DNA from: Candidatus Flavonifractor intestinigallinarum
Lineage (GTDB): Bacteria > Bacillota > Clostridia > Oscillospirales > Oscillospiraceae
Direction of reading: 5' to 3'
Length of the DNA: 36,634 nucleotides
Assembly (NCBI GenBank): GCA_019119165.1
Contig: DWXO01000083.1
Location: 1 to 36,634 of the forward strand
Of the stretch, positions 16,014 to 31,044 are shown one piece after another. The notes below the pieces were generated by a model. That model had not been told where the DNA came from. It saw nothing but the letters and a program-made list of their open reading frames with translations, and ran no database searches. Every line of letters begins with the position of its first letter. Positions within the stretch are counted from its first letter, which is position 1. Position numbers and translations under genes: made by a program.

Positions 16014-16970
16014 TCAGTTGACCCCATCCTGCGGGGAACCGTCCGCAATCTCGGAGCGGACCTGCTCCATCAGCGCCTCATAGGCCCGGTCGATGCCCTG
16101 CATATAGTCACGCACGAAGTCCCGGAACCGCTTGCCCTGGGCGTTCAGCGGGCGGCGCTTGTGGTAGGCGATGCCGAAATAGGCCACCGGCGCACCGTCG
16201 GTGTAGGGCCGACAGACCACGTCGCTGTGCTTGCCCAGTAGCCGCAGCTCCCGGTATTTCACCGAAGGCACGATGGAGATGCAGCGGTTGGCCTCCACCA
16301 GGGAGAGCAGCAGCTCCAGGTGCCGCACGTCGTAGTCGATGATGGGGGTGCTTCCCATTTTTCCTTCGGCGGCGCAGAAGGTGGTCCGGTTGACCCGGGA
16401 ACCATCGATGGCCAGATGCTCGCCTGCCAGCTGCTGACGGCTGATGCTCTGACAGCTGGCCAGAGGGTGGGCCCGGTTGAGCAGCAGCACGAACTCACAT
16501 TCGTACAGCCGCTCAAAGGCCAGATCGTCTCCCGGAGGCTCCAGTACGGTAAGGGCCAGGTCCACCTCCTGGCGCTCCAGCATTGCGGTGACGGAAGGCA
16601 GGTCGGCGCGCTGGTGGTTGAGGCTGATATCCGGATTTTTCAGCAGGAACTGCTGGAGCATGATAGTGTCGTCTACCATACAGGCAATGGACAGCGCTTC
16701 TGGGCGGTCGGCGTTGAGATTTCGCACCTCCTGCACGCCCTTCTCCAGGGCGGACAGAGCCTGATCCACGTAGCGCAGGAAGCACTCGCCGCTCTGATTC
16801 AGGGTGATTTTGCCCCGCCTGCGTTCAAACAACGGGACTCCTACCTCCTCCTCCAGCCGGGATAGAGAAGTGCTCAAATTGGGCTGGGAGACGAACATGG
16901 TCTCAGCCGCTTTGGACATATTACCCAACTGGGCTACGGCAGAAAAGTACCGGAGCTGTGAAAGTTCCAT
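16014..16970 (-). CDS. LysR-family regulator of the catabolic cluster
   Basis: 318 residues, the usual LysR length. The N-terminal winged helix (1-60) has the signature MSKAAETMFVSQPNLSTSLSRLEEEVGVPLFERRRGK with the conserved family pattern; the rest is a periplasmic-binding-like effector domain (about 90-290). The strong ribosome site AGGAGG lies 8 bases before the start on the reverse strand. It is divergent from the MFS transporter at 17169 with a 198-base shared control region, so it most likely activates the 17169-29009 genes in response to a pathway compound, and represses itself. Ligand unknown; in LysR proteins it is often a small acid or aromatic compound. Confidence 0.9.
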   Translation of the reverse strand: MELSQLRYFSAVAQLGNMSKAAETMFVSQPNLSTSLSRLEEEVGVPLFERRRGKITLNQSGECFLRYVDQALSALEKGVQEVRNLNADRPEALSIACMVDDTIMLQQFLLKNPDISLNHQRADLPSVTAMLERQEVDLALTVLEPPGDDLAFERLYECEFVLLLNRAHPLASCQSISRQQLAGEHLAIDGSRVNRTTFCAAEGKMGSTPIIDYDVRHLELLLSLVEANRCISIVPSVKYRELRLLGKHSDVVCRPYTDGAPVAYFGIAYHKRRPLNAQGKRFRDFVRDYMQGIDRAYEALMEQVRSEIADGSPQDGVN

Positions 16971-17168: not shown

Positions 17169-18440
17169 ATGGAACAAACGAAGCGAGGCTTTGGTGCCTG
17201 GGGTTGGTTTCTGCTGATCTTCGGATTGCTGATCTTCTTCAGCAACGGCGGCTTCTTTGCTGACGGCACCAACGTGATCTCCCCCGCGGTAGCGGAAAAG
17301 TTAAACGTGGATCAGAGTTTGATCCTTACCATGAACTCCATTGCCGGTGTGATCGGCGTCCTGGTGGCCATCGTGGCCGGCCAGATCAACCAGCGCATCG
17401 GTCCCAGTAAGGTGGCCGCCGGCTGCCTGATCCTGGCGGGCCTGGGTCACATCGCCACCGGCAACGCCGTGAACGTGCCCATGTATCTCATCGCCATGTG
17501 CTGCGTGGGCGGCGGCCTGAGCGCCGGTTCCTTCGTGGGCATCGGGACTCTGGTGGCCATGTGGTTCCCCAAGAAGCAGGGCCAGGCCATGAGCGTTGTG
17601 GCCATGGGCTCCAACTTCGGCACCATGCTCTTCGTCCCCCTGCTCACCGTGATGGTGGGCGCCATGGGCATCGCCACCAGCTCCATGATCTGCGGCCTGG
17701 TGGCCGTGGCGGTGGGCGTGATCGGCGCCATCCTGCTGCGCAACACCCCCACCGAGCGGGGCCTGTATCCCGATAACGTCACCGAGGCCGAGTTCAAGGC
17801 CAACTATTCCACCAAGCCCCCCGAGGTCTCCGACGCCGGCTGGACCACCGGCAAGCTGCTGCGCACCAAAGAGGTGTGGCTGTGCGTGTTCTCCACCGGC
17901 CTGCTGATGCTGGTCCAGATGGGCATTATGACCCAGCTGGTTGCCCGCAACATGGAGGTGGGCATGGATCTGGCCATGGCCACCGGCGTCATGAGCGCCA
18001 TCGCCGTCATCGGCATCATCGGTTCGGTGATCTTCGGCCGTATCGTGTTCAAGCTGGGCATCAAAAAGGCCGGCGTGCTCACCGGCGTGCTGTACATCGT
18101 CGCCATGCTGTGCAACGTCAGCGGCATCATGCCTCTGGTGTGGGTGTCCCTGGTGATCATCGGTTTCCTGGGCGCCGCCGCTCCCAACCTGATGAACTCC
18201 GTTCCCGGCTCCGTGTTTGGCCGGGTGGGCTACGCCAAGGTCAACAGCGTGGTGTTCCCCCTGACCAGCATTATCTTTATGCTCAACTTTGCCGTCAACG
18301 GCCTGATCAAGCAGCTGTTCAACAGCCTGAGCGTGGCTTACATCGTTTTCGCCGTACTGGCTCTGATTTCCACTCTGCTGATCCTGGCCCTGCAGGATCA
18401 CAAGTATGACCAGGACTATATGGCCGCCCATAAAAAGTGA
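17169..18440 (+). CDS. MFS transporter, OxlT/monocarboxylate-like (first)
   Basis: 423 residues, about 12 membrane helices, with the central cytoplasmic loop near 195-230. The motif YLIAMCCVGGGLSAGSFVGIGTLVAMWFPKKQGQAMSVVAMGSNFG matches the pattern of helix 4-5 in the oxalate/formate antiporter and monocarboxylate groups (gain of Phe-Pro-(K/R)x-x-G). It should move an organic anion across the cell membrane. ATG 17169 lies 11 bases after AAGGA; in-frame ATG 17145 has no ribosome site. First gene of the cluster after the LysR control region, 29 bases before the DUF362 gene. A second MFS gene (21227) in the same cluster suggests uptake and product export, or two substrates. Confidence 0.8.
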   Translation: MEQTKRGFGAWGWFLLIFGLLIFFSNGGFFADGTNVISPAVAEKLNVDQSLILTMNSIAGVIGVLVAIVAGQINQRIGPSKVAAGCLILAGLGHIATGNAVNVPMYLIAMCCVGGGLSAGSFVGIGTLVAMWFPKKQGQAMSVVAMGSNFGTMLFVPLLTVMVGAMGIATSSMICGLVAVAVGVIGAILLRNTPTERGLYPDNVTEAEFKANYSTKPPEVSDAGWTTGKLLRTKEVWLCVFSTGLLMLVQMGIMTQLVARNMEVGMDLAMATGVMSAIAVIGIIGSVIFGRIVFKLGIKKAGVLTGVLYIVAMLCNVSGIMPLVWVSLVIIGFLGAAAPNLMNSVPGSVFGRVGYAKVNSVVFPLTSIIFMLNFAVNGLIKQLFNSLSVAYIVFAVLALISTLLILALQDHKYDQDYMAAHKK

Positions 18441-18469: not shown

Positions 18470-19750
18470 ATGAGCAAGAACTCTACCGTGGCTCTGGCCC
18501 ACGGCAAGGACGTGCAGGAAAACGTCACCCGCGTCTTTGAGATGATGGGCGGCGTCACCAAGATGATCGAGCCCAACTCCACCGTGGTGCTCAAGCCCAA
18601 CGCCGGTCATGCGGCTCCCCCCGAGTTTGCCGTTTGTACCCATCCCGAGACCGTCCGGGCTGTGATCCGTGAGGTCAAGAAGGCCAATCCCAAGCGCATC
18701 GTCATCGCTGAGGCCGCCGCCGTCGGCTGCGACACCATCGAGTGCTACGAGGCCTGCGGCATTGCCAAGGTGGCCGAGGAAGAGGGCGTGGAGCTGGTCG
18801 ACATCAAGCGGGACAAGGACCTGATCAATGTGGCTGTCCGCGGCTACCGCTCCAACATCAGCCATGTGAAGCTGCCCCGCCTGCTGCTGGAGGCCGAGCA
18901 CATCATCAACCTGCCCATCCTGAAGGCTCACGCCAGCATGGTGTTCTCCGGCGCGCTGAAGAACATCAAGGGCGTGGTGCAGGACCAGGTCCACGTGCAG
19001 ATGCACCAGCAGAACCTGACCATGGCCATGATGGATGTGTGGTGGGCCTGCCGGGCCGACATCAACATCATGGACGTGATGCACGCCGCCAGCGGCTACT
19101 CTCCCCACACTCCCGTGCCCATCGAGGTGGACTGCATCATGGGCTCCTATGACCCCGTGGCTCTGGACCGCATCGCCTGCGAGCTGGTGGGCATCGATCC
19201 CGACGGCGTGGACTACTTCCGCGTAGCCCAGGAGGCCGGTCTGGGTACCACCGAGCGGGACAAGATCGAGGTTATTGGCGACGATCTGGCCGCCTGCTCC
19301 ACCAAGATGTGGGTTCCCTACCTGGAGGACATCCGCAACCGCTGGCCTGAGTATGAGGTCCACTGCGAGGGCGCCTGCTCCAGCTGCCAGGCCCTGCTCA
19401 CCCTGAACATGGAGACCCTGAAGGCCATCGGCGTCTACGATAAGAACACCGATATGGTTATCGTGGCCGGCGGCAAGAACACCCTGTCTCCCGATACGCC
19501 CGACGAAAAGATTATGCTCCACGGCAACTGCGCCCGCAAGCATCTGAAGGATCATCCCAACGCCTTCTTCCTCCAGGGGTGCCCCCCCGGAGAGGGCTCC
19601 CTGTATATGTCCATCCTCCGCAAGGAGGCCATGACCGGCAAGCCCGAGCAGATGCACTGGATCCGCGAGCGGATGGAAATCGACGCCCCCGCCTGGCGCG
19701 GCTATGTGGAGAACGAGGCTGCGAAGTTTTATGGAACAGACAAGACTTGA
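18470..19750 (+). CDS. DUF362-domain protein with a C-terminal Cys cluster
   Basis: 426 residues with the DUF362 features: VLKPNAGHAAPPE (40-52), THPETVRAVIREV (57-69), HIINLPILKAHASMVFSGALKNIKGVV (144-170) and GSYDPVALDRIACELVGIDP (225-244). DUF362 proteins often carry [4Fe-4S] ferredoxin parts, but here the tail instead has C299, C303, C306, C354 and C371, enough for one Fe-S cluster in an unfamiliar spacing. No signal peptide. The function of the family is not settled. The gene has a strong AAAAGGAGG site, sits between transporter and a 94-residue partner, and likely supports the pathway as a redox or Fe-S enzyme. This last point is inference. Confidence 0.75.
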   Translation: MSKNSTVALAHGKDVQENVTRVFEMMGGVTKMIEPNSTVVLKPNAGHAAPPEFAVCTHPETVRAVIREVKKANPKRIVIAEAAAVGCDTIECYEACGIAKVAEEEGVELVDIKRDKDLINVAVRGYRSNISHVKLPRLLLEAEHIINLPILKAHASMVFSGALKNIKGVVQDQVHVQMHQQNLTMAMMDVWWACRADINIMDVMHAASGYSPHTPVPIEVDCIMGSYDPVALDRIACELVGIDPDGVDYFRVAQEAGLGTTERDKIEVIGDDLAACSTKMWVPYLEDIRNRWPEYEVHCEGACSSCQALLTLNMETLKAIGVYDKNTDMVIVAGGKNTLSPDTPDEKIMLHGNCARKHLKDHPNAFFLQGCPPGEGSLYMSILRKEAMTGKPEQMHWIRERMEIDAPAWRGYVENEAAKFYGTDKT

Positions 19751-20015
19751 TCAGGGCTATGTGACCCTGACGGATGCCCCGGAACTGATGAAGCTGCTGG
19801 AGGACATCTTCACCGACGAGTTCATGCAGAAGCACACCCGCTTTGAGAATTTCGACGGGTTCAAGTTCTCCAGCGCGGTGATGGTCAACTGGAAGGCCGA
19901 TACCATCGTCTACGCGCCCCTTCTGCTGGACAGCTTTGTGAAGGAGAGCACCCAGTTTGCCGACTGGGACGAGATGGTGCGCTCCGCCACCAGCCTGCGC
20001 TATCATTGCAGCTAA
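19731..20015 (+). CDS. 94-residue unknown protein overlapping the DUF362 gene
   Basis: I do not recognise this protein. ATG 19731 lies 20 bases inside the DUF362 gene, a translational-coupling arrangement. It is acidic, has no membrane segment, and only one Cys, the next-to-last residue. The middle FENFDGFKFSSAVMVNWKADTIVYAPLLLDSFV is aromatic and hydrophobic, compatible with an alpha/beta small domain. Codon use matches the neighbours and the C-terminal stretch FVKESTQFADWDEMVRSATSLRYHCS is in frame and well formed, so it is likely real. By position it may be a subunit or folding partner of the DUF362 protein. Confidence 0.6.
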   Translation: MEQTRLDQGYVTLTDAPELMKLLEDIFTDEFMQKHTRFENFDGFKFSSAVMVNWKADTIVYAPLLLDSFVKESTQFADWDEMVRSATSLRYHCS

Positions 20016-20252: not shown

Positions 20253-21215
20253 ATGAAACCGGAAGAGATCAAGCGAGTGGCCTGTGTGGGCGGCGGTGTG
20301 ATCGGTTCCAGCTGGGCCATTCAGTTTGCCATGAAGGGCCTGGATGTGGTTCTGTACGATATCAATGACGAGCAGCTGGCCAAAAGCCAGGCTCAGATGC
20401 ACAAGAGCCTGGATGCCCTGGAGCAGTTCAAGGCGGTGACACCTCAGCGGCGGCAGGAGATCGCCGACCAGGTGAAGCTGACCACCTCCATGGAGGAGGC
20501 GGTGAAGGACGCCCAGTTCATCCAGGAGAGCGGCCCTGAGCGGCTGGAGATCAAGCGGTCTATCCTGGCCCAGGTGGAGGAATTTGCCTCCCCCGACGCC
20601 ATCTATGCCAGCTCCACCTCCGGCCTGTTGGTCAGTGATATCGCCGCCCAGGCGGCCCATCCTCAGCGGTGCGTGGGGGCCCACCCCTACAATCCCCCTC
20701 ACCTGATCCCCCTGGTGGAGCTGACCTCCGGCGACAAGACCGATCCGGAGCTGCTTCAGCTGGCCTACGACTTCTATCAGTCCATCGGTAAAGAGGCGGT
20801 GCTGTTGCGCAAGGAGTGCCCCGGCTTCATCGCCAACCGGCTTCAGCTGGCCCTCTACCGGGAGGTGCAGGATCTGATCATGCGGGGCGTGTGCTCCGTG
20901 GAGGATGCGGACAAGGCTCTGGTGTACGGCCCCGGCCTGCGCTGGGCCATCTTCGGCCACAACATGATCATGCAGCTGGGCAACCCCGGCGGTCTCACCG
21001 GCATGGTGCAGATGCTGGGCAACTCCGGCGACCGCTGGCTGGCCGACATGGCCTCCTGGACCCATCAGCCCGACAACTGGGCCGAGGTGGCTCAGCCCGG
21101 CGTGGATCAGGAGATGGCCAATTTCCCCGACCACATCGGCCACACCAACGAGGATTGCGCCAAGTACCGGGATCAGATGCTCATTGAGCTGCTGAAACTC
21201 CACCGCAAGCTGTAA
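20253..21215 (+). CDS. 3-hydroxyacyl-CoA dehydrogenase family, L-carnitine-dehydrogenase-like
   Basis: 320 residues. NAD-binding motif GGGVIG (13-18) with Asp36 at the end of the second strand, favouring NAD+. HADH catalytic elements: Ser120-Thr122 and His144 in VGAHPYNPPHLIPLVE, and Asn148. The segment YGPGLRWAIFGHNM (225-238) is typical of the L-carnitine dehydrogenase and lambda-crystallin (L-gulonate dehydrogenase) branch rather than of fatty-acid HADH. Expected reaction: a free beta-hydroxy acid plus NAD+ to a beta-keto acid. That fits a BKACE in the same cluster, as carnitine dehydrogenase and BKACE are paired in Pseudomonas carnitine catabolism. Strong site AAAGGAG; the next gene starts after 11 bases. 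Confidence 0.8.
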   Translation: MKPEEIKRVACVGGGVIGSSWAIQFAMKGLDVVLYDINDEQLAKSQAQMHKSLDALEQFKAVTPQRRQEIADQVKLTTSMEEAVKDAQFIQESGPERLEIKRSILAQVEEFASPDAIYASSTSGLLVSDIAAQAAHPQRCVGAHPYNPPHLIPLVELTSGDKTDPELLQLAYDFYQSIGKEAVLLRKECPGFIANRLQLALYREVQDLIMRGVCSVEDADKALVYGPGLRWAIFGHNMIMQLGNPGGLTGMVQMLGNSGDRWLADMASWTHQPDNWAEVAQPGVDQEMANFPDHIGHTNEDCAKYRDQMLIELLKLHRKL

Positions 21216-21226
21216 GGGGAGGTCCA

Positions 21227-22456
21227 ATGAGTTCCCCAAAGGATTTTAACGTTTTTGCCCGGCGGCGCTGGGTGTGCCTCATCTCCGCCATGGTCATCTG
21301 TATCTGCGCCGGCTTTGGTTACGCCTGGAGCGTACTGCAAAACCCCATCGTGACCCGCTTCGGCTGGGCCGACTCCGCCGTGGCCCTGGCCTATACCATT
21401 ACGGTGCTGTGTTCCACCATGGCGCCCCTCATCTTCGGCGGGCTGATCCGCCGTATGTCCACCCGGACCGGCGTCATTGTGGGCGCGGTCCTCTTCGGCG
21501 GCGGGCTATTGCTGACCGGCCTGATGAATCAGATCTGGCAGCTCTACCTGTTTTACGGCGTGATCTCCGGCCTGGGGGTGGGCTTCATCTACCCCAGCAT
21601 GATGGCCTATGTGGTTCGTCTCTTTCCCGACCGGTCGGGCCTGGCCTCCGGCCTGGGCACCGCCGCCTACGGCTCGGGCGCCATTTTGTGGGCCCCCACC
21701 GCCGCGGCGTTGATGGAGGGCGTGGGCATGGACCGGGCTTTCCAGGTGCTGGGCGTCCTCTTCGCCGCCGTCATTCTGGTGGGCTCCCTGCTGCTGACCG
21801 ACCCCCCGGAGGGCTTTCAGGCCGCCATGGCCCCCAAGCGCGGAGGAGAGCAGGGGGGAGCCGCCGACCTGCGGCGGGGCCAGATGGTACGCACCGGTAC
21901 CTTCTGGAAGATGGTAGTGGTGTTTACTTGCGGACTGGTGGCGGGGGTTATCGTCATCAGCCAGGCCTCTCCCATCCTCCAGCAGACCCTGGGCTATACC
22001 GCTTCCGGCGCGGCCCTCTTCGTCAGCGTATTTTCCGCCTGTAACATGGCCGGGCGCTTCCTGTGGGGCAGCCTGTCGGACAAGCTGGGACTGGTCAATA
22101 CCGCCGGCGCGGTCTTTGTGCTGTGCATCCTGTCCATGGGCCTGCTGGCCGTGGTGGGGCAGGAGGTGCCGGTGCTGGTGCTGATGGGCGTGGCGGCCTC
22201 CTGCTATGGCGGCCTGGCTTCCATCCTCACCCCCCTGACCGCCCGGATGTTCGGTCCCCGGTACATCACGGAAAACTACGGCGTCATGTATGTGGTGTTC
22301 GGTCTGGCCAGCCTCATCGGGCCCAGCCTGGCTACCACCTTTAAAACCATGGGAGGGGGAAGCTATACCGGAGCCTATGTTACCGCCGCGGTGCTGGCGG
22401 CGGTGGGCCTGGTCCTCTCCCGCTTCCTGAAACCTGTGTCCCGCAAAGGAGAATGA
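21227..22456 (+). CDS. MFS transporter, OxlT-like (second)
   Basis: 409 residues, about 12 membrane helices with a charged central loop (about 205-225, PKRGGEQGGAADLRRGQ). It resembles the oxalate/formate antiporter group: WSVLQNPIVTRFGWADSAVALAYTI near 33-58 and GVGFIYPSMMAYVVRLFPDRSGLASGLGTAAYGSG (122-150). Substrate likely a small mono- or dicarboxylate. ATG 21227 has GGGGAGG 5-6 bases upstream; it lies between the dehydrogenase and CoA transferase genes with tiny gaps (11 and 1 bases), so it is part of the same transcript. Confidence 0.85.
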   Translation: MSSPKDFNVFARRRWVCLISAMVICICAGFGYAWSVLQNPIVTRFGWADSAVALAYTITVLCSTMAPLIFGGLIRRMSTRTGVIVGAVLFGGGLLLTGLMNQIWQLYLFYGVISGLGVGFIYPSMMAYVVRLFPDRSGLASGLGTAAYGSGAILWAPTAAALMEGVGMDRAFQVLGVLFAAVILVGSLLLTDPPEGFQAAMAPKRGGEQGGAADLRRGQMVRTGTFWKMVVVFTCGLVAGVIVISQASPILQQTLGYTASGAALFVSVFSACNMAGRFLWGSLSDKLGLVNTAGAVFVLCILSMGLLAVVGQEVPVLVLMGVAASCYGGLASILTPLTARMFGPRYITENYGVMYVVFGLASLIGPSLATTFKTMGGGSYTGAYVTAAVLAAVGLVLSRFLKPVSRKGE

Positions 22457-22457
22457 T

Positions 22458-23111
22458 ATGGAATTAAGTAAAGTGCGTACCATGGAGCAGATCATCGCCA
22501 GCTTCAAGGACGGCCAGACCATCGCCATCGGCGGCCAGACCAACCACTATATGCCGGAGCGGCTCATTGACTGCGTGCTGGAGAGCGGGGCCAAGCATCT
22601 GACGGTGTACTCCATCGACTCCAGTGACCCCGGCATGGGCATCAGCCGCATCATCGAGGCCGGGCGGGTGGACAAGATGATCACCACCCATGTGGGGACC
22701 AATCCCCGCACCAACGCCCGCATCCAGGACGGCTCCCTGAAGGCGGAGCTCATCCCCATGGGCACCTTTATTGAGCGCATCCGCTGCGGCGGCATGGGCC
22801 TGGGGGGCGTGCTCACCAAGACCGGCCTGGGTACCGTGGTGGAGGAGGGCAAGCAGGTCATTGAGGTCAATGGCCAGCAGTACCTGCTGGAGACGGCTCT
22901 CCACGCCGACGTGGCCCTGACCCGCTGCCGGAAGGCCGATCCTCTGGGCAACCTGGCCTATCGGGGCAGCAGCGGCCACGCCTCCCACCCGGTCATCGCC
23001 ACCTGTGCCGACCTGTCCATCGTGGAGTGCGATCACTTCTGCGATCTGGGCGAGATCGGCCCGGACGAAGTGAAGGTGCCCGGTATGTTCGTGGACATGA
23101 TTCTGGTGTAA
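22458..23111 (+). CDS. CoA transferase subunit A (acetoacetate-type)
   Basis: 217 residues, alpha subunit of a family I 3-oxoacid CoA transferase (AtoD/ScoA type). Visible family elements: DGQTIAIGGQTNHYMPERLIDCVLESGAKHLTVYS (18-52), THVGTNPRTNARIQDGSLKAELIPMGTFIERIRCGGMGLGGVLTKTGLGT (77-126) and ETALHADVALTRCRKADPLGNLAYRG (145-170). It works only with subunit B, which follows after 13 bases. It should transfer CoA between an acyl-CoA and acetoacetate. Starts one base after the MFS stop codon with AAAGGAG upstream. Confidence 0.9.
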   Translation: MELSKVRTMEQIIASFKDGQTIAIGGQTNHYMPERLIDCVLESGAKHLTVYSIDSSDPGMGISRIIEAGRVDKMITTHVGTNPRTNARIQDGSLKAELIPMGTFIERIRCGGMGLGGVLTKTGLGTVVEEGKQVIEVNGQQYLLETALHADVALTRCRKADPLGNLAYRGSSGHASHPVIATCADLSIVECDHFCDLGEIGPDEVKVPGMFVDMILV

Positions 23112-23124
23112 GGAGGGGGAGCAG

Positions 23125-23775
23125 ATGGACAACAGAAACTTTATCGCCAAGCGGGCCGCCGCCTACTTCAAGCCCGGCGACGTGGTCAACCTGGGCATCG
23201 GTATCCCCAGCCTCTGCGGCAGCTATGCTGCCGAGGGGGTCCTGTTCCAGAGCGAGAACGGCTTTATCGGCATCGGCGCCACGGTGAATGAGGGCCTGAT
23301 GATGAACGAGCGGTTTGTCAATGCCGGCGGCGTGAACTTTATCCCTGTCCCTGGCGCCAGCGCCTTTGATGTGGCCATGTCCTTCGGCGTGATCCGTTCC
23401 GGTCGGCTGGCCGCCACCGTACTGGGCGGCCTTCAGGTGTCCGCCAACGGCGATCTGGCCAACTGGGCCTCTCCCGGCCGGGCCTTCGGCATGGGCGGCG
23501 CCATGGACCTGTGCAACGGCGCCCGGAAGGTGATCGTGGCCATGGATCTGGTGGCCAAGAACGGCGCACCCAAGGTGGTCAACCAGTGTACCATGCCTCT
23601 CACCGCCATCCGCTGTGTGGACCATATCGTCACCGACCGCTGCGTCATCAACGTGACCCCGGAGGGCCTGGTACTGGCCGAGATCCGCAAGGGTCATACT
23701 GTGGAAGAAATTCAGGCCGCCGTGGAGCCCAAGCTCCTGGTGGCCCCCGATCTGATTGAAATGGAGGAAGATTGA
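23125..23775 (+). CDS. CoA transferase subunit B (catalytic)
   Basis: 216 residues, beta subunit. The catalytic Glu is Glu44 in the motif SENGFIGIG (43-51), preceded by NLGIGIPSL (22-30). GGLQVSANGDLANW and the tail VLAEIRKGHTVEEIQ are typical of AtoA/ScoB. In the pathway it most plausibly moves CoA from the acyl-CoA made by the BKACE to acetoacetate, giving acetoacetyl-CoA for the thiolase that starts one base after its stop codon. Ribosome site AAGGAGGGGG. Confidence 0.9.
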   Translation: MDNRNFIAKRAAAYFKPGDVVNLGIGIPSLCGSYAAEGVLFQSENGFIGIGATVNEGLMMNERFVNAGGVNFIPVPGASAFDVAMSFGVIRSGRLAATVLGGLQVSANGDLANWASPGRAFGMGGAMDLCNGARKVIVAMDLVAKNGAPKVVNQCTMPLTAIRCVDHIVTDRCVINVTPEGLVLAEIRKGHTVEEIQAAVEPKLLVAPDLIEMEED

Positions 23776-23776
23776 T

Positions 23777-24949
23777 ATGGCAAAACCGCTGAGCAAGACG
23801 GTTGTCGTGGCCTACGGCCGCTCCGCCGTGGCTAAATCCGGCAAGAAGGGCGCTCTGCGTCAGCTCCATCCCATTGATATGGGCGGCTTGGTGCTGAAGG
23901 GCGTTATGGAGAAGATCCCCCAGCTGGACCCCGCTCTGGTGGAGGACGTGATTCTGGGCTGCGCCATCCCCGAGGCCAAGCAGGGCCTCAACCCCGCCCG
24001 TCTGGTGGCCGCCCGGGCCGGGCTGCCCTACACCGCCTGCGGCCTCACCGTGGACCGCTTCTGTTCCTCCTCTCTCCAGGCCGTGGCCCAGGCCGCCTGG
24101 CAGATCGAGGCCGGTCAGGCCGACTGCATCGTGGCCGGCGGCATTGAGTCCATGACCGCTCTGCCCATGACCCTGGACCGCAGCGGAGATATGAACCCCT
24201 GGCTGCTGGAGAACGACCCCAATCAGTATATCTCCAACGGCGAGACCGCCGAAAACGTGGCTGAGAAGTACAACGTCACCCGGGAGGAGATGGACGCTCT
24301 GGCTCTGGCCAGCCATCAGAAGGCGGCCCATGCCCAGGACGCCGGCTACTTTGACGAGCAGATCATCCCCCTGCCCGGTGTGGACGCCGAGGGCAACCCT
24401 ATTGTCTTTGACAAGGACCAGGGCATCCGCCGTGACACCAGCATGGAGAAGATGGCTTCCATGAAGCCCTGCTTCCGGGAGAATGGCCGGGTCACCGCCG
24501 CCACCTCCTCCCAGACCAGCGACGGCGCTGCCTTCCTGGTGCTCATGAGCCGGGACAAGGCTGCTGAGTTGGGTATCAAGCCTCTGGCCTCCTTCCTGGG
24601 CTTCTGCGTGGGCGGCCTGGACCCCGCCTATATGGGTCTGGGTCCCATCTACGCCGTGCCCAAGGTGATGGAGTACACCGGCCTCACTGTCAATGACATG
24701 GACGTGATCGAGCTCAACGAGGCCTTTGCCGCCCAGGTCAGCCCCTGCATCAAGGAGCTGGGCATGGACCCCGCCAAGGTCAACCCCAACGGCGGCGCCA
24801 TGGCCCTGGGACATCCTCTGGGCGCTACCGGCGCGGTGCTGTCCTGCAAGGCCATCTCCGAGCTGCGCCGCACCGGCGGCAAGTACGCCCTGGTGACCAT
24901 GTGCATCGCCGGCGGCATGGGCGCGGCCGGTATCTTTAAAACGGAATAA
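23777..24949 (+). CDS. Thiolase (acetyl-CoA acyltransferase)
   Basis: 390 residues, normal thiolase length. Nucleophile Cys96 in VDRFCSSSLQAV (the usual motif has Gly in place of the third Ser), His in GGAMALGHPLGATGA (about 344-358) and second Cys in VTMCIAGGMGAAG near the end. Also NEAFAAQ with the conserved Asn-Glu. It cleaves acetoacetyl-CoA or a related 3-oxoacyl-CoA with CoA to acetyl-CoA in the cytosol, or works in reverse. Here the CoA transferase genes directly upstream argue for acetoacetyl-CoA cleavage that returns the acetyl-CoA spent by the BKACE. ATG 23777; a 48-base AT-rich gap follows. Confidence 0.9.
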   Translation: MAKPLSKTVVVAYGRSAVAKSGKKGALRQLHPIDMGGLVLKGVMEKIPQLDPALVEDVILGCAIPEAKQGLNPARLVAARAGLPYTACGLTVDRFCSSSLQAVAQAAWQIEAGQADCIVAGGIESMTALPMTLDRSGDMNPWLLENDPNQYISNGETAENVAEKYNVTREEMDALALASHQKAAHAQDAGYFDEQIIPLPGVDAEGNPIVFDKDQGIRRDTSMEKMASMKPCFRENGRVTAATSSQTSDGAAFLVLMSRDKAAELGIKPLASFLGFCVGGLDPAYMGLGPIYAVPKVMEYTGLTVNDMDVIELNEAFAAQVSPCIKELGMDPAKVNPNGGAMALGHPLGATGAVLSCKAISELRRTGGKYALVTMCIAGGMGAAGIFKTE

Positions 24950-24997
24950 ATTGACGCAATAATCATTCTATTTGACTATTTTACGGAGGTATTTGTT

Positions 24998-26014
24998 ATG
25001 GGTAAGCCTTTGGCTGATTATGTGAAGCTCCCCCAGCTGGACGAGTATAAGGAGTGGTTCAAGGATTTCGCGGACCTGTACCGTGAGGACGGTATCCTGC
25101 AGGTGACCTGGAAAACCAACGACGGCCCCATGCACCACAGCGGTATGTCCCACCGGGCCATCAGCCAGCTGGTGCGCATCCTGTCCCTGGACAACGAGAA
25201 TGAGATCATCATTTTCACCCACATCGGCGACAGCTGGATGACCGAGTCCGATCCCAACGGCTGGGAGACCTACTCCAAGCTGCCCACCGAGCGGTTCCAG
25301 CACCAGTATTTTGATGACACCAACCTGATCAAGAACATGGTTTTCGATCTGGACGTGCCCACCATCGGCGTGCTGCCCGGCCCCGGCTTCCACTGGGACT
25401 CCGCCATGCTCAGCGATATCACCATCTGCTCCGATGACACCTGGATCGAGGTACCCCACGCCCACGGCGGCCTGGTGCCCGGCGACGGCATGGGCCTGAT
25501 GGCTCAGCACTACTTCGGCACCAAGCGGGGCAACTACTACATGATGACCGCCCGTCAGTGGACCGCCCAGCAGATGCTGGACTGGGGCATGGTCAGCGAA
25601 GTGGTGCCCAAGGATCAGGTCATGGCCCGTGCCTGGGAGATTGCCCGGATGCTCAAGACCATGCCCTATGAGAACCGTACCATCATGTCCAACCTGGCCA
25701 AGCGGCCCCTGAAGAAGCTGCTGGTGGAGGACCTGAAGCTGCACACTGTTTCCGAGCAGTACGGCTCTCTGCTGCGCATCGCCGCTGGCGACATGGGCGA
25801 CCGCAACGCTGCCCAGCAGGACGAGAAGTACATCAGCCAGACCAACGACTGGCGTTACTGCCACGACTGGATGCAGCAGCCCCCCACCCGGGAGAGCTGG
25901 GCCGGCTTCCGTACCAAGCCCATCGAGTGGTTCAAGGAAGTGGAGGCCGGTCGGGAGGTCAACCCCTTCGATCCCAACCGCCCGGTGAAGCCCTATCGCC
26001 CCGACGAGAAGTAA
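24998..26014 (+). CDS. 6-oxocamphor-hydrolase-like C-C hydrolase, copy 1
   Basis: 338 residues, crotonase superfamily. The segment GGLVPGDGMGLMAQHYFGTKRGNYYMMTARQWTAQQMLDWGMVSEV (157-202) parallels 6-oxocamphor hydrolase (OCH) of Rhodococcus, which cleaves a C-C bond in cyclic beta-diketones by a retro-Claisen reaction with water. From memory, OCH uses His122, His145, Asp154 and Glu244; by alignment these fall on His132 (GFHWD), His154 (VPHAHGG), Asp163 (VPGDG) and Glu253 (VSEQYG), all present. No CoA-enoyl hydratase Glu pair is evident. About 80 residues at the C-terminus (260-338) go beyond OCH length. Ribosome site GGAGG with 8-base spacing; copy 2 follows after 40 bases. The diketone substrate is unknown. 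Confidence 0.7.
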   Translation: MGKPLADYVKLPQLDEYKEWFKDFADLYREDGILQVTWKTNDGPMHHSGMSHRAISQLVRILSLDNENEIIIFTHIGDSWMTESDPNGWETYSKLPTERFQHQYFDDTNLIKNMVFDLDVPTIGVLPGPGFHWDSAMLSDITICSDDTWIEVPHAHGGLVPGDGMGLMAQHYFGTKRGNYYMMTARQWTAQQMLDWGMVSEVVPKDQVMARAWEIARMLKTMPYENRTIMSNLAKRPLKKLLVEDLKLHTVSEQYGSLLRIAAGDMGDRNAAQQDEKYISQTNDWRYCHDWMQQPPTRESWAGFRTKPIEWFKEVEAGREVNPFDPNRPVKPYRPDEK

Positions 26015-26054
26015 GCCAAAGACCGGAACGATTTGAGTATTGGAGGTTACTGTA

Positions 26055-27068
26055 ATGGGAAAGCCTATGGCTGATTACGTCAAGCTGCCTGAGTTTGACG
26101 AGTATAAAGAGTGGTTCAAGGATTTTGCGGACCTGAAGCGGGAGGACGGCATCGTCCAGGTCACCTGGAAGACCAACGACGGCCCCATGCACCACAGCGG
26201 TATGTCCCATCGGGCCATGAGCCAGCTCACCCGCTGGCTGAGCCTGGACTACAAGAACGAGATCATTATCTATACCCACATCGGCGACAACTGGATGATC
26301 GAGTCGGATGCCAACGGCTGGGAGACCTACTCCAAGCTGCCCACCGAGCGGTTCCAGCACCAGTATTTTGACGACACCAACCTGATCAAGAACATGATCT
26401 TTGATCTGGATGTGCCCACCATCGGCGCTATCCCCGGCCCCGGCTTCCACTGGGATTCCGCCATGCTGTGCGACATCACCCTGTGCTCTGAGGACACCAA
26501 GATGGAGGTGCCTCACGCTCAGGGCGGTCTGGTGCCCGGCGACGGCATGGGCCTGATGTGCCAGCACTACTTCGGCACCAAGCGGGGCAACTACTACATG
26601 ATGACCTCCCGCCAGTTTACCGCCCAGCAGATGCTGGACTGGGGCATGGTCAACGAGGTGCTGCCCAAGGGCAAGGTGCTGGAGCGGGCCTGGGAGATCG
26701 CCCGGATGTGGAAGACCATGCCCTACGAGAACCGCACCATCATGTCCAACCTGGCCAAGCGTCCGCTCAAGAAGCTGCTGGTGGAGGACCTGAAGCTGCA
26801 TACCGTCTCCGAGCAGTATGGTTCTCTGCTGCGGGTGGCCGCCGGCGACCTGGGCGATGAGAACTCCGCTCAGCAGGATGAGAAGTACATCAGCCGCGTG
26901 GGCGACTGGCGTTACGCCACCCACGACATGGAGCAGCCCCAGACCGCCGAGAGCTGGCGCACCATGCCTCAGAAGGCTGCTGAGTGGTGGAAGAAGGTCA
27001 ACGCCGGAGAGATCGAGAATCCCTTCGTCTTTGAGCACAGCAACGAGCCGGAGGGCTACGAATTTTGA
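26055..27068 (+). CDS. 6-oxocamphor-hydrolase-like C-C hydrolase, copy 2
   Basis: 337 residues, a tandem paralogue of the preceding gene. Counting by eye, 43 of the first 290 residues differ (about 85% identity, no gaps), while the last 45 diverge strongly. The four candidate catalytic residues His132, His154, Asp163 and Glu253 are kept. Changes cluster near the putative active site: His156 to Gln, Ser139 to Cys, Ile143 to Leu, Asp146 to Glu, Trp149-Ile150 to Lys-Met. This suggests a second substrate or a heteromeric enzyme rather than a simple copy. GGAGG 9 bases before ATG 26055. A weak terminator follows before the BKACE gene. Confidence 0.7.
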   Translation: MGKPMADYVKLPEFDEYKEWFKDFADLKREDGIVQVTWKTNDGPMHHSGMSHRAMSQLTRWLSLDYKNEIIIYTHIGDNWMIESDANGWETYSKLPTERFQHQYFDDTNLIKNMIFDLDVPTIGAIPGPGFHWDSAMLCDITLCSEDTKMEVPHAQGGLVPGDGMGLMCQHYFGTKRGNYYMMTSRQFTAQQMLDWGMVNEVLPKGKVLERAWEIARMWKTMPYENRTIMSNLAKRPLKKLLVEDLKLHTVSEQYGSLLRVAAGDLGDENSAQQDEKYISRVGDWRYATHDMEQPQTAESWRTMPQKAAEWWKKVNAGEIENPFVFEHSNEPEGYEF

Positions 27069-27082
27069 TCCAGCAGGGAAGA

Positions 27083-27106
27083 AGGGGCCGCCTCCGGCCT
27101 CTTTTT
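27083..27106 (+). terminator. Weak internal terminator or attenuator
   Basis: GGCCG (27086-27090) pairs with CGGCC (27095-27099), extended by AGG/TCT with a G-T pair, then five T (27102-27106). It lies in the 92-base gap between the second hydrolase and BKACE genes and could reduce expression of the last two genes. Confidence 0.55.
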
Positions 27107-27160
27107 CCCATACCCGCAGCCTAAATCCGGTGCGGAATCATAAAAAGGAGTGGAACTGAA

Positions 27161-28045
27161 ATGGCAAAGACCATCATTACCGCCGCGCTGACCGGCGCGG
27201 TCACCCCCGCGGGCTACAAGATCCCCGAGACCCCCCAGCAGATCGCCGACGAGGCCTATGACGCCTGGAAGCTGGGCGCCGCTGTGGTCCACCTGCATAT
27301 GCGTGCCGACGACGGCCTGGGCGCTATGGACAAGGAGAAGTTCCGTGAGACCATCCGCCTGATCCGCAGCCACAAGGACTGTGACGTCATCATCAACTGC
27401 ACCTCCTCCGGCGCCTCTCCCCAGCATCCCGCCACCGATGAGGAGCGTATGGCCCACCACAAGGAGCTGGCCGGTATCGAGATGGGCTCCTACGACGCCG
27501 GTTCCTTCAACTGGATGCCCGGCGGCGTGTTCATCAACTCCCCCCAGTTCCTCCAGCAGCTGGGCGACCTGTACATGGAGAAGGGCACCAAGCCGGAGAT
27601 CGAGATTTTTGACGCCGGTATGCTGGGCGTCACCGACTACTTTGTGAAGAAGGGCCACCTGCCCAACCCCTGCCACTACCAGTTCTGCCTGGGTGTGCTG
27701 GGCGGTATGCCCGCCACCGTGGAGAACCTGCTCTACCTGGTGAACCACATCCCCGCCGGTTCCACCTGGTCCGCCTTCGGCGTGGGCAAGGGTCATCTGC
27801 CCATCATGTTCGCGGCCCTGGCCCTGGGCGGCCACATCCGCGTGGGCATGGAGGACAACGTGGTCTTTGGCGTGGACGAGAACGGCAAGAAGATCATGGC
27901 CACCAACCATATGCTGGTGGAGCGCGCCGTGGCTGCCGTCAAGGCCTTCGGCAATACCCCCGCTACCCCCGCCGAGGCCCGCCAGATCCTGGGCATTCCC
28001 GCCTTTGACGGCGAGAAGGTCCGCGCCGCTCTGGGGATCGACTGA
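27161..28045 (+). CDS. BKACE: beta-keto acid cleavage enzyme (DUF849/Kce family)
   Basis: 294 residues, a TIM-barrel Zn enzyme of the family that includes 3-keto-5-aminohexanoate cleavage enzyme (Kce), dehydrocarnitine cleavage enzyme and triacetate acetoacetate-lyase. Reaction type: beta-keto acid plus acetyl-CoA gives acetoacetate plus the shortened acyl-CoA. Zn ligands His44 and His46 (VHLHMR) and Glu231 (RVGMEDNVVFG), with NCTSSGA (79-85) in the substrate pocket region. The usual HxHxRD reads His-Leu-His-Met-Arg-Ala here. Which beta-keto acid is bound cannot be read with certainty. The lysine-fermentation partners of Kce (aminomutases, diaminohexanoate dehydrogenase) are absent, so another substrate is likely. 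Start ATG 27161 after AAAAGGAG. Confidence 0.85.
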   Translation: MAKTIITAALTGAVTPAGYKIPETPQQIADEAYDAWKLGAAVVHLHMRADDGLGAMDKEKFRETIRLIRSHKDCDVIINCTSSGASPQHPATDEERMAHHKELAGIEMGSYDAGSFNWMPGGVFINSPQFLQQLGDLYMEKGTKPEIEIFDAGMLGVTDYFVKKGHLPNPCHYQFCLGVLGGMPATVENLLYLVNHIPAGSTWSAFGVGKGHLPIMFAALALGGHIRVGMEDNVVFGVDENGKKIMATNHMLVERAVAAVKAFGNTPATPAEARQILGIPAFDGEKVRAALGID

Positions 28046-28046
28046 T

Positions 28047-29009
28047 ATGAAGATCCAGAGCGTACTGGGTCCGGTGGATACGGCCGACCTGGGCCAGGTG
28101 CTGATGCACGAGCATCTGACCTGTGCCGACTGGTCCATGCGGATGAACTTTGGTTCCCGCTTCTATGAAGGGGACAAGGTGACCGAGATGGCCTGCGGGA
28201 TGCTGGGCAAGGCAGCACAGCAGGGCGTGGCCACCGTGGTGGACGGCACGCCGGTAAACCTGGGCCGTGATGTCCACCTGATGCGGGAGGTGGCCCGCCG
28301 CACGGGGCTGAACATCATCGCGTCTACCGGCTTCTACTATCAGGAGGAGCCCTGGCTGGGCTTCCGGGACGAGGAGCAGATCTACGACCTGCTGATGGGC
28401 GACTGCACCGACGGCATTCAGGGTACAGACAGTAAGCCGGGCATCCTGAAGGCTGGCGTGGCCCGGGCTGGCGTGACTCCTCTGCTGAACAAGGTGCTCC
28501 ATGCCACCGGACGGGTGGCGGCTGAGACCGGTTTGCCCATCTTCTGCCACCACGATCCCTCTGTCCACAGCGGCGGGGAGATCCTGGACCTGTTCGAGAG
28601 CTGCGGCGTGCCTGCAAACCGGGTGATCCTGGGTCACAGCGGCGACACCACCGATCTGGAGTACCTCACCGCCATGCTGGAGCGGGGCTGTTGGCTGGGT
28701 ATGGACCGCTTCGGCTTCTGCGACCGGGACCTGGGGCTGGAGCCCCGGGTGGACACCATTGCCCGGCTGTGCGAACTGGGCTGGGGGAGCAAGCTGCTCC
28801 TCAGCCACGATCTGGCCGCCTATCTGGCCTTCTGGGACAGCTGGGAGACCACCAAAAACAGTGATTACCTCCATCTGGAGGAGGACTTCACCTTCATCCA
28901 CCGGCGGGTGCTGCCCGCCCTGCGGGAGCGGGGCCTGGAACCCGCCGCGGTGGACGGCCTGTTGACGGCCAACCCCAGAGCCTTCTTTGAAGGAACTTCC
29001 AGTCGCTGA
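28047..29009 (+). CDS. Phosphotriesterase-family metal hydrolase (possibly a lactonase)
   Basis: 320 residues, amidohydrolase-superfamily TIM barrel of the phosphotriesterase/PLL group. The binuclear metal site is complete by motif: His21-His23 (LMHEHL), Lys135 (GILKAG, expected to be carboxylated), His168 (PIFCHHD), His197 (VILGHSGDTTD) and Asp255 (LLSHDLA). Natural members mostly hydrolyse lactones or esters. ATG 28047 lies one base after the BKACE stop codon, so it is tightly coupled and presumably belongs to the same pathway, perhaps opening a lactone that forms from a hydroxy-keto acid. That role is inference. It is the last gene before a strong terminator. Confidence 0.8.
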   Translation: MKIQSVLGPVDTADLGQVLMHEHLTCADWSMRMNFGSRFYEGDKVTEMACGMLGKAAQQGVATVVDGTPVNLGRDVHLMREVARRTGLNIIASTGFYYQEEPWLGFRDEEQIYDLLMGDCTDGIQGTDSKPGILKAGVARAGVTPLLNKVLHATGRVAAETGLPIFCHHDPSVHSGGEILDLFESCGVPANRVILGHSGDTTDLEYLTAMLERGCWLGMDRFGFCDRDLGLEPRVDTIARLCELGWGSKLLLSHDLAAYLAFWDSWETTKNSDYLHLEEDFTFIHRRVLPALRERGLEPAAVDGLLTANPRAFFEGTSSR

Positions 29010-29195: not shown

Positions 29196-29247
29196 AGAAG
29201 TCAAAGAGTATGGCCCTCCGGGCCCACAGAATGGAAAGGTGAATCGA

Positions 29248-30093
29248 ATGGAACAGTCAAAGGTCCACGAACTGGCTGTCACAGCCGCCCGTGCCCGCCT
29301 GCTGGCGATGGACATGGTGCACGACGCGGCCTCCGGCCACATCGGCGGCTCCCTGTCCTCCATGGACATCATTACCACCCTGTACGGTCATGTGATGCGG
29401 GTTGATCCCGCCAACCCCCGGGACCCCGACCGGGACCGCTTCGTGCTGTCCAAGGGGCACTGTACCCCCGCGCTTTATCCCAATCTGGCTTTGAAGGGCT
29501 TTTTCCCCGTGGAGGATCTGAAGTTGTTCCGCTCCATCAAGGGCGAAATGTCCGGCCATGCCGAGATGCGCCACATCAAGGGCGTGGATATGTCCACCGG
29601 CTCTCTGGGCCAGGGCATCTCCGCAGCTGTGGGCATGGCTCTGGCGGGCAAGGCCGATCAGAAGGACTATCGCGTGTACGCCCTGTTGGGCGACGGCGAG
29701 ATCGAGGAGGGCCAGGTGTGGGAGGCCGCTATGTCCGCGGCCAAGTACCACCTGGATAACCTGTGCGCCATTGTGGACGTCAACGGCCTGCAGATTGACG
29801 GCGCCACTGCCGACGTCATGCCCTCCGAGCCTCTGGACAAGAAGTTTGAGGCCTTCAATTGGAATGTGATCCATGTGGACGGCCACGACTTTGAGGCTCT
29901 GGATCAGGCTTTCCAGGCGGCCGCCGCCTGCAAGGGCAAGCCCACCGTGCTGCTGGCCAAGACCATCAAGGGCAAGGGCGTCTCCTTCATGGAGGGGGAC
30001 TACGGCTGGCACGGCAAGGCGCCCAACGACGAGCAATATGAAAAGGCCCACGCGGAGCTGGCCGCGACGCTGGCGGAACTGGAGGGAAAGTAA
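29248..30093 (+). CDS. Transketolase, N-terminal (thiamine-binding) subunit
   Basis: 281 residues: the first half of transketolase as a separate chain, common in Clostridia and archaea. Thiamine-diphosphate elements: HDAASGHIGGSLSSMDIITTLYGHVM (29-54), SKGHCTPALYPNLA and GDGEIEEGQVWEAAMSAAKYHLDNLCAIVDVNGLQIDG (about 150-187) with the metal-binding Gly-Asp-Gly...Asn. Substrates are sugar phosphates of the non-oxidative pentose phosphate pathway; cytosolic. Paired with the next gene, 3 bases away. ATG 29248 with GGAAAGG upstream. A link with the catabolic cluster is possible but the separate promoter argues for housekeeping pentose supply. Confidence 0.9.
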   Translation: MEQSKVHELAVTAARARLLAMDMVHDAASGHIGGSLSSMDIITTLYGHVMRVDPANPRDPDRDRFVLSKGHCTPALYPNLALKGFFPVEDLKLFRSIKGEMSGHAEMRHIKGVDMSTGSLGQGISAAVGMALAGKADQKDYRVYALLGDGEIEEGQVWEAAMSAAKYHLDNLCAIVDVNGLQIDGATADVMPSEPLDKKFEAFNWNVIHVDGHDFEALDQAFQAAAACKGKPTVLLAKTIKGKGVSFMEGDYGWHGKAPNDEQYEKAHAELAATLAELEGK

Positions 30094-30096
30094 GCC

Positions 30097-31044
30097 ATGA
30101 GTGAGAAGATCGCCACCCGTGTGGCATACGGTAAGGCCCTGGCCGAGCTGGCCGACCAGTATCCCGACCTGGTGGTGCTGGACGCAGACCTGTCCGGCTC
30201 CACCCAGAGCGCCTTTTTTGCCAAGGCCCACCCTGAGCGCTTTTATAATATGGGCATTGCGGAGGCCAACATGACCGGCGTGGCCGCCGGTCTGGCCACC
30301 TGCGGTAAAATGCCCTATACCCATACCTTTGCCATGTTCGCCACCGGTCGGGCCTATGAGCAGGTCCGTAACTCCGTGGCCTATCCCCGTCTCAACGTGA
30401 AGATCGTGGGTTCCCACGGCGGCCTGTCCGTGGGCGAGGACGGAGCCACCCATCAGTGCATCGAGGACTATGCCCTCATGCGTACCATCCCCAACATGAT
30501 GGTGGTTTCTCCCTGCGACGGCCCCGAGATGCGTCTGGCGGTGAAGGCTCTGCTGGACTACGACGGGCCGGCCTATCTGCGGCTGGGCCGCCTGGCGGTG
30601 GACAGCATCACCGATGAGGTGCCCGGCTACTCCTTCCAGCTGGGTAAGGGCTCTCTGCTGCGGGACGGCACCGACGTTACCGTCATTGCCACCGGCATGA
30701 TGGTCCAGATGGCCTATGCCGCCGCTGAGAAGCTGGCGGAGGAGGGAATCTCCGTTCGGGTTATTGATATGCACACCATCAAGCCCCTGGACGGCGAGAT
30801 CGTGCTGAAGGCCGCCCTGGAGACCCGCTGCATCGTCACCTCCGAGGAGCACACCGTCCTCAACGGCCTGGGCTCCGCCGTGGCGGAATTCCTGGCCGAG
30901 CACTGCCCGGTGCCCGTGGTGCGCCACGGCGTCAACGATGAGTTTGGCCGCTCCGGCGCCGCCAAGGCCGTGCTGGAGGCCTATGGCCTCACCACCGAGG
31001 GCATCATCGAGAAGGTGCGCCAGGCCCTGAAGCTGAAGAAATGA
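30097..31044 (+). CDS. Transketolase, C-terminal (pyrimidine-binding) subunit
   Basis: 315 residues: second half of transketolase. Visible features: GIAEANMTGVAAGLATCGKMPYTHTFAMFATGRAYEQVRNSVAY (50-92, including the catalytic Glu of the Glu-Ala-Asn motif), HGGLSVGEDGATHQCIEDYALMRTIPNM (108-135) and the C-terminal transketolase domain from about 185. Forms the active site with the N-terminal subunit at a shared interface. GGAAAG precedes ATG 30097, and the 3' end overlaps the HAD gene by 4 bases (ATGA). Confidence 0.9.
   Translation: MSEKIATRVAYGKALAELADQYPDLVVLDADLSGSTQSAFFAKAHPERFYNMGIAEANMTGVAAGLATCGKMPYTHTFAMFATGRAYEQVRNSVAYPRLNVKIVGSHGGLSVGEDGATHQCIEDYALMRTIPNMMVVSPCDGPEMRLAVKALLDYDGPAYLRLGRLAVDSITDEVPGYSFQLGKGSLLRDGTDVTVIATGMMVQMAYAAAEKLAEEGISVRVIDMHTIKPLDGEIVLKAALETRCIVTSEEHTVLNGLGSAVAEFLAEHCPVPVVRHGVNDEFGRSGAAKAVLEAYGLTTEGIIEKVRQALKLKK

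Follow-up and report, generated by a model that had tools for sequence, protein, structure and literature searches.

Candidate genes for catechin A-ring conversion in a putative Flavonifractor ring-opening cluster with a crotonase-type hydrolase

The closest described counterpart of the gene cluster reported here is the phloroglucinol pathway of Clostridium scatologenes, for which PMC10470551 names the enzymes PGR, DPGC, TfD and TAL, DPGC being a Mn-dependent ring hydrolase of the cyclase family. A second point of comparison is Flavonifractor plautii, strains aK2 and MT42 of which are reported to form a hydroxyphenylvaleric acid and a valerolactone from a diarylpropan-2-ol (PMC4772042, PMC10383799, PMC11887054, PMC8145700). 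The phenyl-valerolactone 3,4-DHPV is introduced as a hallmark microbial metabolite of dietary flavan-3-ols (PMC13057332), and people are stated to differ widely in making such metabolites (PMC8921115). The titles and abstract openings of the literature searched name neither the genes for the F. plautii A-ring conversion nor the bacterial A-ring enzymes. The cluster lies in a stretch of 36,634 nucleotides (the window) of Candidatus Flavonifractor intestinigallinarum, assembly GCA_019119165.1, contig DWXO01000083.1, and includes genes for two proteins resembling 6-oxocamphor hydrolase (OCH) and for a beta-keto acid cleavage enzyme (BKACE). It is a genuine catabolic unit, scattered in its distribution, of the kind that opens rings reductively; its ring hydrolase is of the crotonase type and, in this genus, the proposed first step is an unusual one that relies on DUF362. 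Judged by its sequences, it looks like a full set of genes for reducing, opening and breaking down the phloroglucinol-type ring of plant polyphenols, and it offers candidate genes for turning tea and cocoa catechins into phenyl-valerolactones.

The two OCH-like C-C hydrolases (24998..26014 and 26055..27068, plus strand) are 81% identical to each other. An earlier reading of the window, made without database searches (the sequence-only reading), had called them OCH-like, and the label is borne out: the best solved relatives of copy 1 are the Anabaena beta-diketone hydrolase (E 3e-33) and 6-oxocamphor hydrolase (E 9e-30), and the next crotonase in the PDB search follows only at E 6e-8, about 25 orders of magnitude behind. 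The same two enzymes are closest to copy 2. Residues H122, H145, D154 and E244 of OCH, which we take to be its active-site residues, correspond to H132, H154, D163 and E253 of copy 1 (numbering via the 1o8u alignment), and these four positions are invariant in all 23 aligned sequences. This family kinship and the retained residues indicate that the OCH-like proteins very probably act as hydrolases on a C-C bond of a 1,3-dione. Unlike the two solved enzymes, they are about 75 residues longer at the C terminus, are duplicated, and are encoded inside the BKACE cluster of an anaerobe.

The cluster genes lie on the plus strand. The gene set, positions and order given in the sequence-only reading were confirmed with the open reading frame (ORF) list and with Pfam and NCBIfam profile scans, as was its placing of LysR, MFS and DUF362 genes upstream of the run, the LysR gene being on the minus strand. 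From the dehydrogenase to the phosphotriesterase gene the intergenic gaps are 11, 1, 13, 1, 48, 40, 92 and 1 bases. The run opens with a 3HCDH-family dehydrogenase of the lambda-crystallin/carnitine-dehydrogenase type by profile scans (20253..21215), the proposed 3-hydroxy-5-oxo acid dehydrogenase. It is followed by MFS transporter 2 (21227..22456; NCBIfam L-lactate MFS model, 339 bits against a cut-off of 320), CoA transferase subunits A (22458..23111) and B (23125..23775), both from profile scans, and a thiolase of the NCBIfam acetyl-CoA C-acyltransferase subfamily (23777..24949). Downstream of the OCH-like pair are BKACE (27161..28045; Pfam PF05853, 293.6 bits against 24.8) and a phosphotriesterase-family hydrolase (28047..29009; PF02126, 204.9 bits against 22.4) that aligns along its length with 4if2 and is a proposed lactonase. 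Upstream lies the DUF362 gene (18470..19750), encoding a proposed ring reductase. Its end is overlapped by a gene for a 93-aa protein with no Pfam match (19731..20015), a constant neighbour that the sequence-only reading had not listed.

We read the cluster, tentatively and at somewhat less than an even chance, as a reductive ring-cleavage pathway for a phloroglucinol-type ring bearing a side chain, most likely a ring-opened flavan-3-ol. The sequences show which genes are present, that the OCH active-site positions are kept, that the cluster is conserved and that DUF362 with the small protein is exchanged for SDR with cupin; we infer the substrate, every reaction and the reductase role of DUF362. 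The substrate would be 1-(3,4-dihydroxyphenyl)-3-(2,4,6-trihydroxyphenyl)propan-2-ol, whose trihydroxyphenyl ring the DUF362 protein and its small neighbour would convert to a 2-substituted 5-hydroxycyclohexane-1,3-dione. OCH1 and OCH2 would hydrate this dione in a retro-Claisen reaction, to yield a 3-hydroxy-5-oxo acid whose C6 bears the side chain; a 3-hydroxy-5-oxo acid is the product of opening a 5-hydroxycyclohexane-1,3-dione of the dihydrophloroglucinol type. The dehydrogenase would then form the 3,5-dioxo acid, BKACE would use acetyl-CoA to split it into acetoacetate and a 3-oxoacyl-CoA, and thiolase would yield acetyl-CoA and 4-hydroxy-5-arylvaleryl-CoA. CoA would be passed to acetoacetate by the CoA transferase, freeing 4-hydroxy-5-arylvalerate, which the phosphotriesterase-type enzyme may interconvert with the gamma-valerolactone. 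By this bookkeeping four ring carbons would leave as two C2 units, and the remainder would be exactly 4-hydroxy-5-(3,4-dihydroxyphenyl)valerate, which can lactonise to the gamma-valerolactone. Dione opening by the OCH-like enzymes, hydroxy-acid oxidation, BKACE cleavage and the use of CoA transferase and thiolase had already been proposed in the sequence-only reading by analogy with phloroglucinol breakdown, and both scheme and analogy hold up. Chemistry, taxon and gene content together make catechin A-ring fission our leading single hypothesis.

The predicted route shares with the C. scatologenes pathway ring reduction, 1,3-dione hydrolysis, 3-hydroxy acid oxidation, BKACE cleavage, thiolase and CoA transferase. 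It differs in its ring hydrolase, an OCH-type crotonase and not a member of the Mn-dependent cyclase family, in the reductase slot, which DUF362 and the small protein would fill in place of an SDR, and in the extra lactonase-type gene. Two canonical phloroglucinol families, the 3HCDH-type dehydrogenase and BKACE, are present in the window cluster; no cyclase-family DPGC was found in it, and no SDR phloroglucinol reductase among its proteins scanned. A further difference is that a phloroglucinol-type set coexists elsewhere in the window's genome. With the F. plautii conversion the pathway has its predicted end product in common, and that species carries the cluster (ATCC 29863, locus L061); the passages on the aK2 and MT42 conversion, by contrast, name no genes or enzymes. 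In locus L061 (11048 to about 12100) OCH copy 2 is split over two frames, with matches at 11048 and 11775, and an interruption or a sequencing error is possible. Strain ATCC 29863 itself presumably carries out the diarylpropan-2-ol conversion, although its strain number occurs in none of the papers listed in a literature search.

A substrate with a side chain is favoured because BKACE differs at residue 14, the thiolase shares only 42% identity with its counterpart in a sister cluster on contig C50 of the same genome, and CoA transferase and lactonase-type genes are present. The window BKACE and dehydrogenase are 50% and 32% identical, respectively, to the copies in a phloroglucinol-type cluster on contig C12. 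Residue 14 of BKACE is V in the window and V, I or M in all 23 OCH-cluster enzymes compared (the window and 22 loci, counting proteins of at least 250 residues, which leaves out the split copy of L058). At this position W stands in the C12 and C50 copies, and E in the solved lysine-pathway enzyme and in the C22 copy. This difference suggests, as far as sequence comparison goes, that BKACE of the OCH clusters takes a different, neutral and perhaps larger acyl group. A carnitine-like substrate, which the sequence-only reading had thought able to explain the dehydrogenase and BKACE, is now disfavoured. The dehydrogenase reaches 210 bits against the NCBIfam L-carnitine dehydrogenase model, under the cut-off of 414, and the Glu of the lysine-pathway enzyme is Val in BKACE. 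Lysine-type substrates are set back in the same way, BKACE scoring 247 bits against the lysine-pathway Kce equivalog NF052387, under the cut-off of 382.

A scan of species genomes gave 72 OCH-related loci, which were tabulated with identity thresholds that we set; for loci on short contigs, genes beyond the contig end count as lacking. BKACE is present in 23 loci, the dehydrogenase in 21, thiolase in 17, both CoA transferase genes in 15 and the phosphotriesterase-type gene in 11. DUF362 with the small protein was found in 15, a particular SDR in 18 and a small cupin in 11. The association of OCH with BKACE is beyond chance: about 2.6 loci with BKACE in the fetched flank would be expected from the BKACE density of this genome and full 10-kb flanks, against the 23 observed. 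Nearly the same gene set occurs in other orders in Coprococcus catus (L026) and in two Oscillospiraceae assemblies (L043, L047). The expectation that the genes travel together met a mixed but favourable outcome, with at least one partner gene in 47 of the 72 loci and none in 25. An OCH gene was found in 21 of 300 sampled genomes of the family, including 4 of 6 from the genus, so OCH is an accessory trait. In five loci (L030, L037, L038, L040, L069) long flavoenzymes of the old-yellow-enzyme type are encoded close to OCH and might provide another front end.

DUF362 and the SDR occur together in none of the 72 loci (Fisher 3e-5 in 30 loci and 2e-5 in 45 genomes, values that, like the other Fisher values given here, overstate the evidence because related genomes are not independent). 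Genome-wide tests covered the genomes of 45 of the 72 loci, to which the window's genome was added for LarC. DUF362 is present in 13 of these 45 genomes and the SDR in 32; three have both, namely G549 and G570, in each of which DUF362 lies with the cyclase cluster, and G540 (a 51% SDR), and three have neither, namely G563, G574 (a cut-off SDR in the OCH locus) and G575. The exchange was observed directly within the genus in Flavonifractor AGMB03687 (L009), whose copies of the shared genes are 84-98% identical to those of the window cluster. This locus lacks the upstream LysR, MFS1 and DUF362 with the small protein; directly after BKACE it has a cupin and an SDR that match their Olsenella profusa counterparts at 67% and 79% identity. 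The C50-type cluster of the L009 genome also lacks DUF362 and the small protein. From these gene patterns we read DUF362 with its small partner and the SDR, with the cupin, as two solutions to the same step before ring opening, ring reduction. Identity between the Olsenella and C12 SDRs is 37%, a likeness compatible with ring reduction and not specific for it.

Seven OCH loci combine the SDR and cupin with an acetoacetate-decarboxylase-family (ADC) protein, and four of these also have an aldehyde dehydrogenase (ALDH), that of Olsenella scoring 533 bits against a methylmalonate-semialdehyde model with a cut-off of 448.5. Neither the dehydrogenase nor BKACE occurs in the seven ADC loci, and ADC occurs in none of the 23 BKACE loci. 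The dehydrogenase accompanies BKACE in 18 of the 23 against none of the seven ADC loci (Fisher 4e-4); three more loci (L025, L051, L066) have it without BKACE in the DNA covered. The SDR or DUF362 is present in 19 of the 23 BKACE loci and in all seven ADC loci. Since the proposed reductase genes go with either module and the dehydrogenase with BKACE and not with ADC, the ring reductase would act upstream of ring opening and the dehydrogenase downstream of it. Both modules would fit a 3-hydroxy-5-oxo acid, either by oxidation, BKACE and thiolase or by retro-aldol cleavage to a methyl ketone and malonate semialdehyde and then acetyl-CoA; that decarboxylase-family proteins can act as aldolases is our assumption. 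The ADC/ALDH-type OCH cluster is seen in Olsenella profusa, Propionibacterium australiense, a Clostridiales metagenome-assembled genome (MAG) and a Treponema MAG (L015 4803-10999, L017, L036, L039).

The 93-aa gene is present in all 15 DUF362 loci. It also stands behind the second DUF362 copy of the genome, on C50, where the small protein is 59-60% and DUF362 69% identical to the window's. A search of 391 class genomes gave distant 93-aa homologues (30-37%) in five genomes besides its own; their neighbourhoods (L107-L111) are unrelated and hold no recognisable partner from the OCH-cluster system, so the protein belongs to a wider small-protein family. Its structure model (pLDDT 85) gave no PDB fold match below E 2.9. 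For DUF362 residues ~11-280 a LarA fold is predicted, and the C-terminal part carries an invariant Cys motif, CxxxCxxC, with GNC and GCPP. DUF362 looks, from its model, like a distant relative of the nickel-pincer lactate racemase with a possible Fe-S part. The Lar_N profile scores 12.6 bits on the window protein, under the gathering score of 23.3, and matches 4 of 13 DUF362 members at E<=10 (best 0.021). A sequence search of DUF362 against the PDB gave nothing at E<=1, and a profile search gave two rows at chance level. Invariant residues H154, K164, H175 and H179 of DUF362 lie in a low-confidence region of the model; in LarA we take the cofactor-bearing residues to be H174, K184 and H200. 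Beyond the predicted fold and the weak Lar_N match, DUF362 differs from LarA and LarA-like nickel-pincer enzymes in its extra Cys-rich C-terminal part, its small partner protein and its catabolic-cluster setting, and a pincer cofactor is only putative for it.

LarB and LarC score above cut-off on contig C23 of the window's genome; no LarE was seen beside them, and the contig ends there. LarC is present in 11 of 14 DUF362 genomes and missing from 3 (Fisher 0.026). No classical LarA turned up when the fetched loci were searched by pattern; the single hit was a chance match resembling an ABC transporter. In two genomes larC adjoins the dehydrogenase of cyclase-type clusters (L131 3349-4122; L132 4110-4940), and the contig of L131 also carries a DUF362 gene. 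In two other loci larB and larC lie, by eye, next to transporter-like genes (L137 8360-10464; L138 5341-8779, the latter also with larE), and a motif search found no classical LarA in either.

The window is part of contig C46 of a 2.29-Mb draft genome that is 85.6% complete, and absences in this genome are therefore weak. Three related clusters are present in it, on the window, C12 and C50. Contig C12 carries in a row an SDR, a 3HCDH-type dehydrogenase, a cyclase-family protein, BKACE and an MFS-like gene, a set that appears to be of the phloroglucinol type at the level of gene families, as compared with C. scatologenes by family and not by sequence. An SDR search of the genome gave two matches, on C12 and C103. 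The statement in the sequence-only reading that no phloroglucinol reductase is seen needs revision, given the C12 set and the SDR, or DUF362 with the small protein, that takes up the reductase position in OCH clusters. Contig C50 (L085, G000:C50:12000-31500, 5919-17402) holds DUF362, the small protein, a cyclase 36% identical to that of C12, a dehydrogenase 39% identical to the window's, a BKACE 84% identical to the C12 copy, thiolase and MFS. The C50 cluster also has an Fe-ADH, a ferredoxin-nitroreductase and, by eye, an NtrC-type regulator. OCH and the cyclase appear to be two options for the ring hydrolase of a single kind of pathway. Of the 45 OCH genomes, 15 have a cyclase 77-100% identical to that of C12, one has a partial match and three have distant matches only; the other 26, many of them incomplete MAGs, gave no match at 1e-15. 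The phloroglucinol-type cluster elsewhere in the genome and the cyclase in 15 of 45 genomes argue that the window cluster probably serves a ring compound other than plain phloroglucinol. In the genome of another OCH cluster, L134 3504-13439 (G540:C1:105000-120000) contains BKACE (68%), an SDR (48%), a dehydrogenase and thiolase, with no OCH or cyclase recognised in this cluster.

Conversion of plain phloroglucinol, or of a simple dihydrophloroglucinol, to three acetyl-CoA through an alternative, non-homologous ring hydrolase would follow the same reaction logic, and we consider it unlikely, if a serious alternative. Every part fits triacetate chemistry, the ADC/ALDH module fits acetone and malonate semialdehyde, and the 26 genomes without a match to the C12 cyclase, incomplete as many are, speak in its favour. 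It is set back by the phloroglucinol-type cyclase in the window's genome and in 15 of the OCH genomes, by a BKACE just 50% identical to the C12 copy and different at residue 14, and by the lactonase, which would be superfluous. Plain phloroglucinol loses ground as the obvious substrate through the cluster on C12. Alternatively, an oxidoreductase might form a 1,3-dione from a non-aromatic ring, derived from quinate or a cyclitol or of the Maillard type, for opening by OCH. A 1,3-dione is all that OCH requires, and the SDR resembles sugar-acid enzymes, that of Olsenella scoring 221.8 bits on a gluconate 5-dehydrogenase model, under the cut-off of 279. OCH-bearing bacteria from oral and bovine habitats, as we presume them to be, would also suit such a source. 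BKACE, however, needs a CH2 beside the carboxylate, and thiolase has to accept the acyl-CoA that BKACE forms, demands that heavily hydroxylated products would be expected to fail, and a sister cluster in the genome is of the phloroglucinol type; we regard this origin as quite improbable. On paper, inositol, quercitol and quinate suit the ADC/ALDH module and not BKACE with thiolase. Opened dihydro forms of resorcinol, pyrogallol and hydroxyhydroquinone, also on paper, would yield no 3-hydroxy acid and leave the dehydrogenase and BKACE idle.

Degradation of an acyclic beta-diketone or a carnitine-like acid, without ring chemistry, is very unlikely. An OCH relative does bear the name beta-diketone hydrolase (2j5g/2j5s), and the dehydrogenase and BKACE families both take part, we assume, in carnitine degradation; yet the dehydrogenase falls far under the carnitine-dehydrogenase cut-off, position 14 of BKACE is not acidic, and DUF362 and the SDR would be left without a role. 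It is scarcely credible that the OCH-like proteins are ordinary enoyl-CoA hydratases in an operon of the beta-oxidation type. Their Pfam match is to ECH_1, but the distance in E-value between copy 1's beta-diketone hydrolase match and other crotonases, the four active-site positions kept in 23 of 23 sequences, and the lack of an acyl-CoA dehydrogenase among the ten cluster proteins scanned against Pfam all argue for a C-C hydrolase.

Several points weigh against catechin A-ring opening. The substrate and reactions are predicted from gene content, chemistry and taxon, and the sequences examined include ATCC 29863, not the strains aK2 and MT42 with reported conversion. PMC10470551 lists F. plautii among the carriers of the canonical phloroglucinol cluster, and the canonical pathway could also be involved in this species; a search of ATCC 29863 with the C12 cyclase came up empty at E<=1e-15, and the strain or assembly may differ from the one listed there. 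ATCC 29863 also has a C50-type cluster (L133), and this DUF362-bearing sister cluster could be the catechin pathway instead. In Olsenella profusa and Propionibacterium australiense, OCH proteins 85-88% identical to the window's go with another downstream module, so plain phloroglucinol or some other dione may be what OCH itself serves. The 25 OCH loci without a partner gene in the DNA covered, several of them on short contigs, count in the same direction, as does the phosphotriesterase gene, which the ATCC 29863 locus lacks and no more than 10 of the 23 BKACE loci contain.

It is doubtful, though conceivable, that two proposals hold at once: that catechin A-ring fission to phenyl-gamma-valerolactones has its missing genetic basis in this cluster, and that DUF362 with its 93-aa partner is a new nickel-pincer, iron-sulfur class of dearomatising enzyme whose role is taken by SDR and cupin in relatives. 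If these proposals are true, metagenomes could be read for the catechin-conversion trait through a defined gene set, both the ring hydrolase and the ring reductase of such chemistry would have arisen repeatedly, and a first role would be found for the DUF362 domain, whose function is so far unassigned.

Upstream of DUF362 lie MFS transporter 1 (17169..18440, plus strand, start estimated in a frame open from 16995), which is 39-40% identical to the MFS proteins of both sister clusters, and a LysR-type regulator ORF divergent from the cluster (16014..16970, minus strand), found in the same place in most Flavonifractor-group loci and not in L009. Further upstream, at 12145-14454, two genes resemble by eye a ferredoxin:NADP oxidoreductase of the NfnA/NfnB type; no adjacency of this redox pair to the cluster was seen in the related loci inspected. 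Downstream of the cluster, at 29239-31044, are split-transketolase-like genes; a pair 58-60% identical to them lies 7-8 kb from a cyclase gene in L127.

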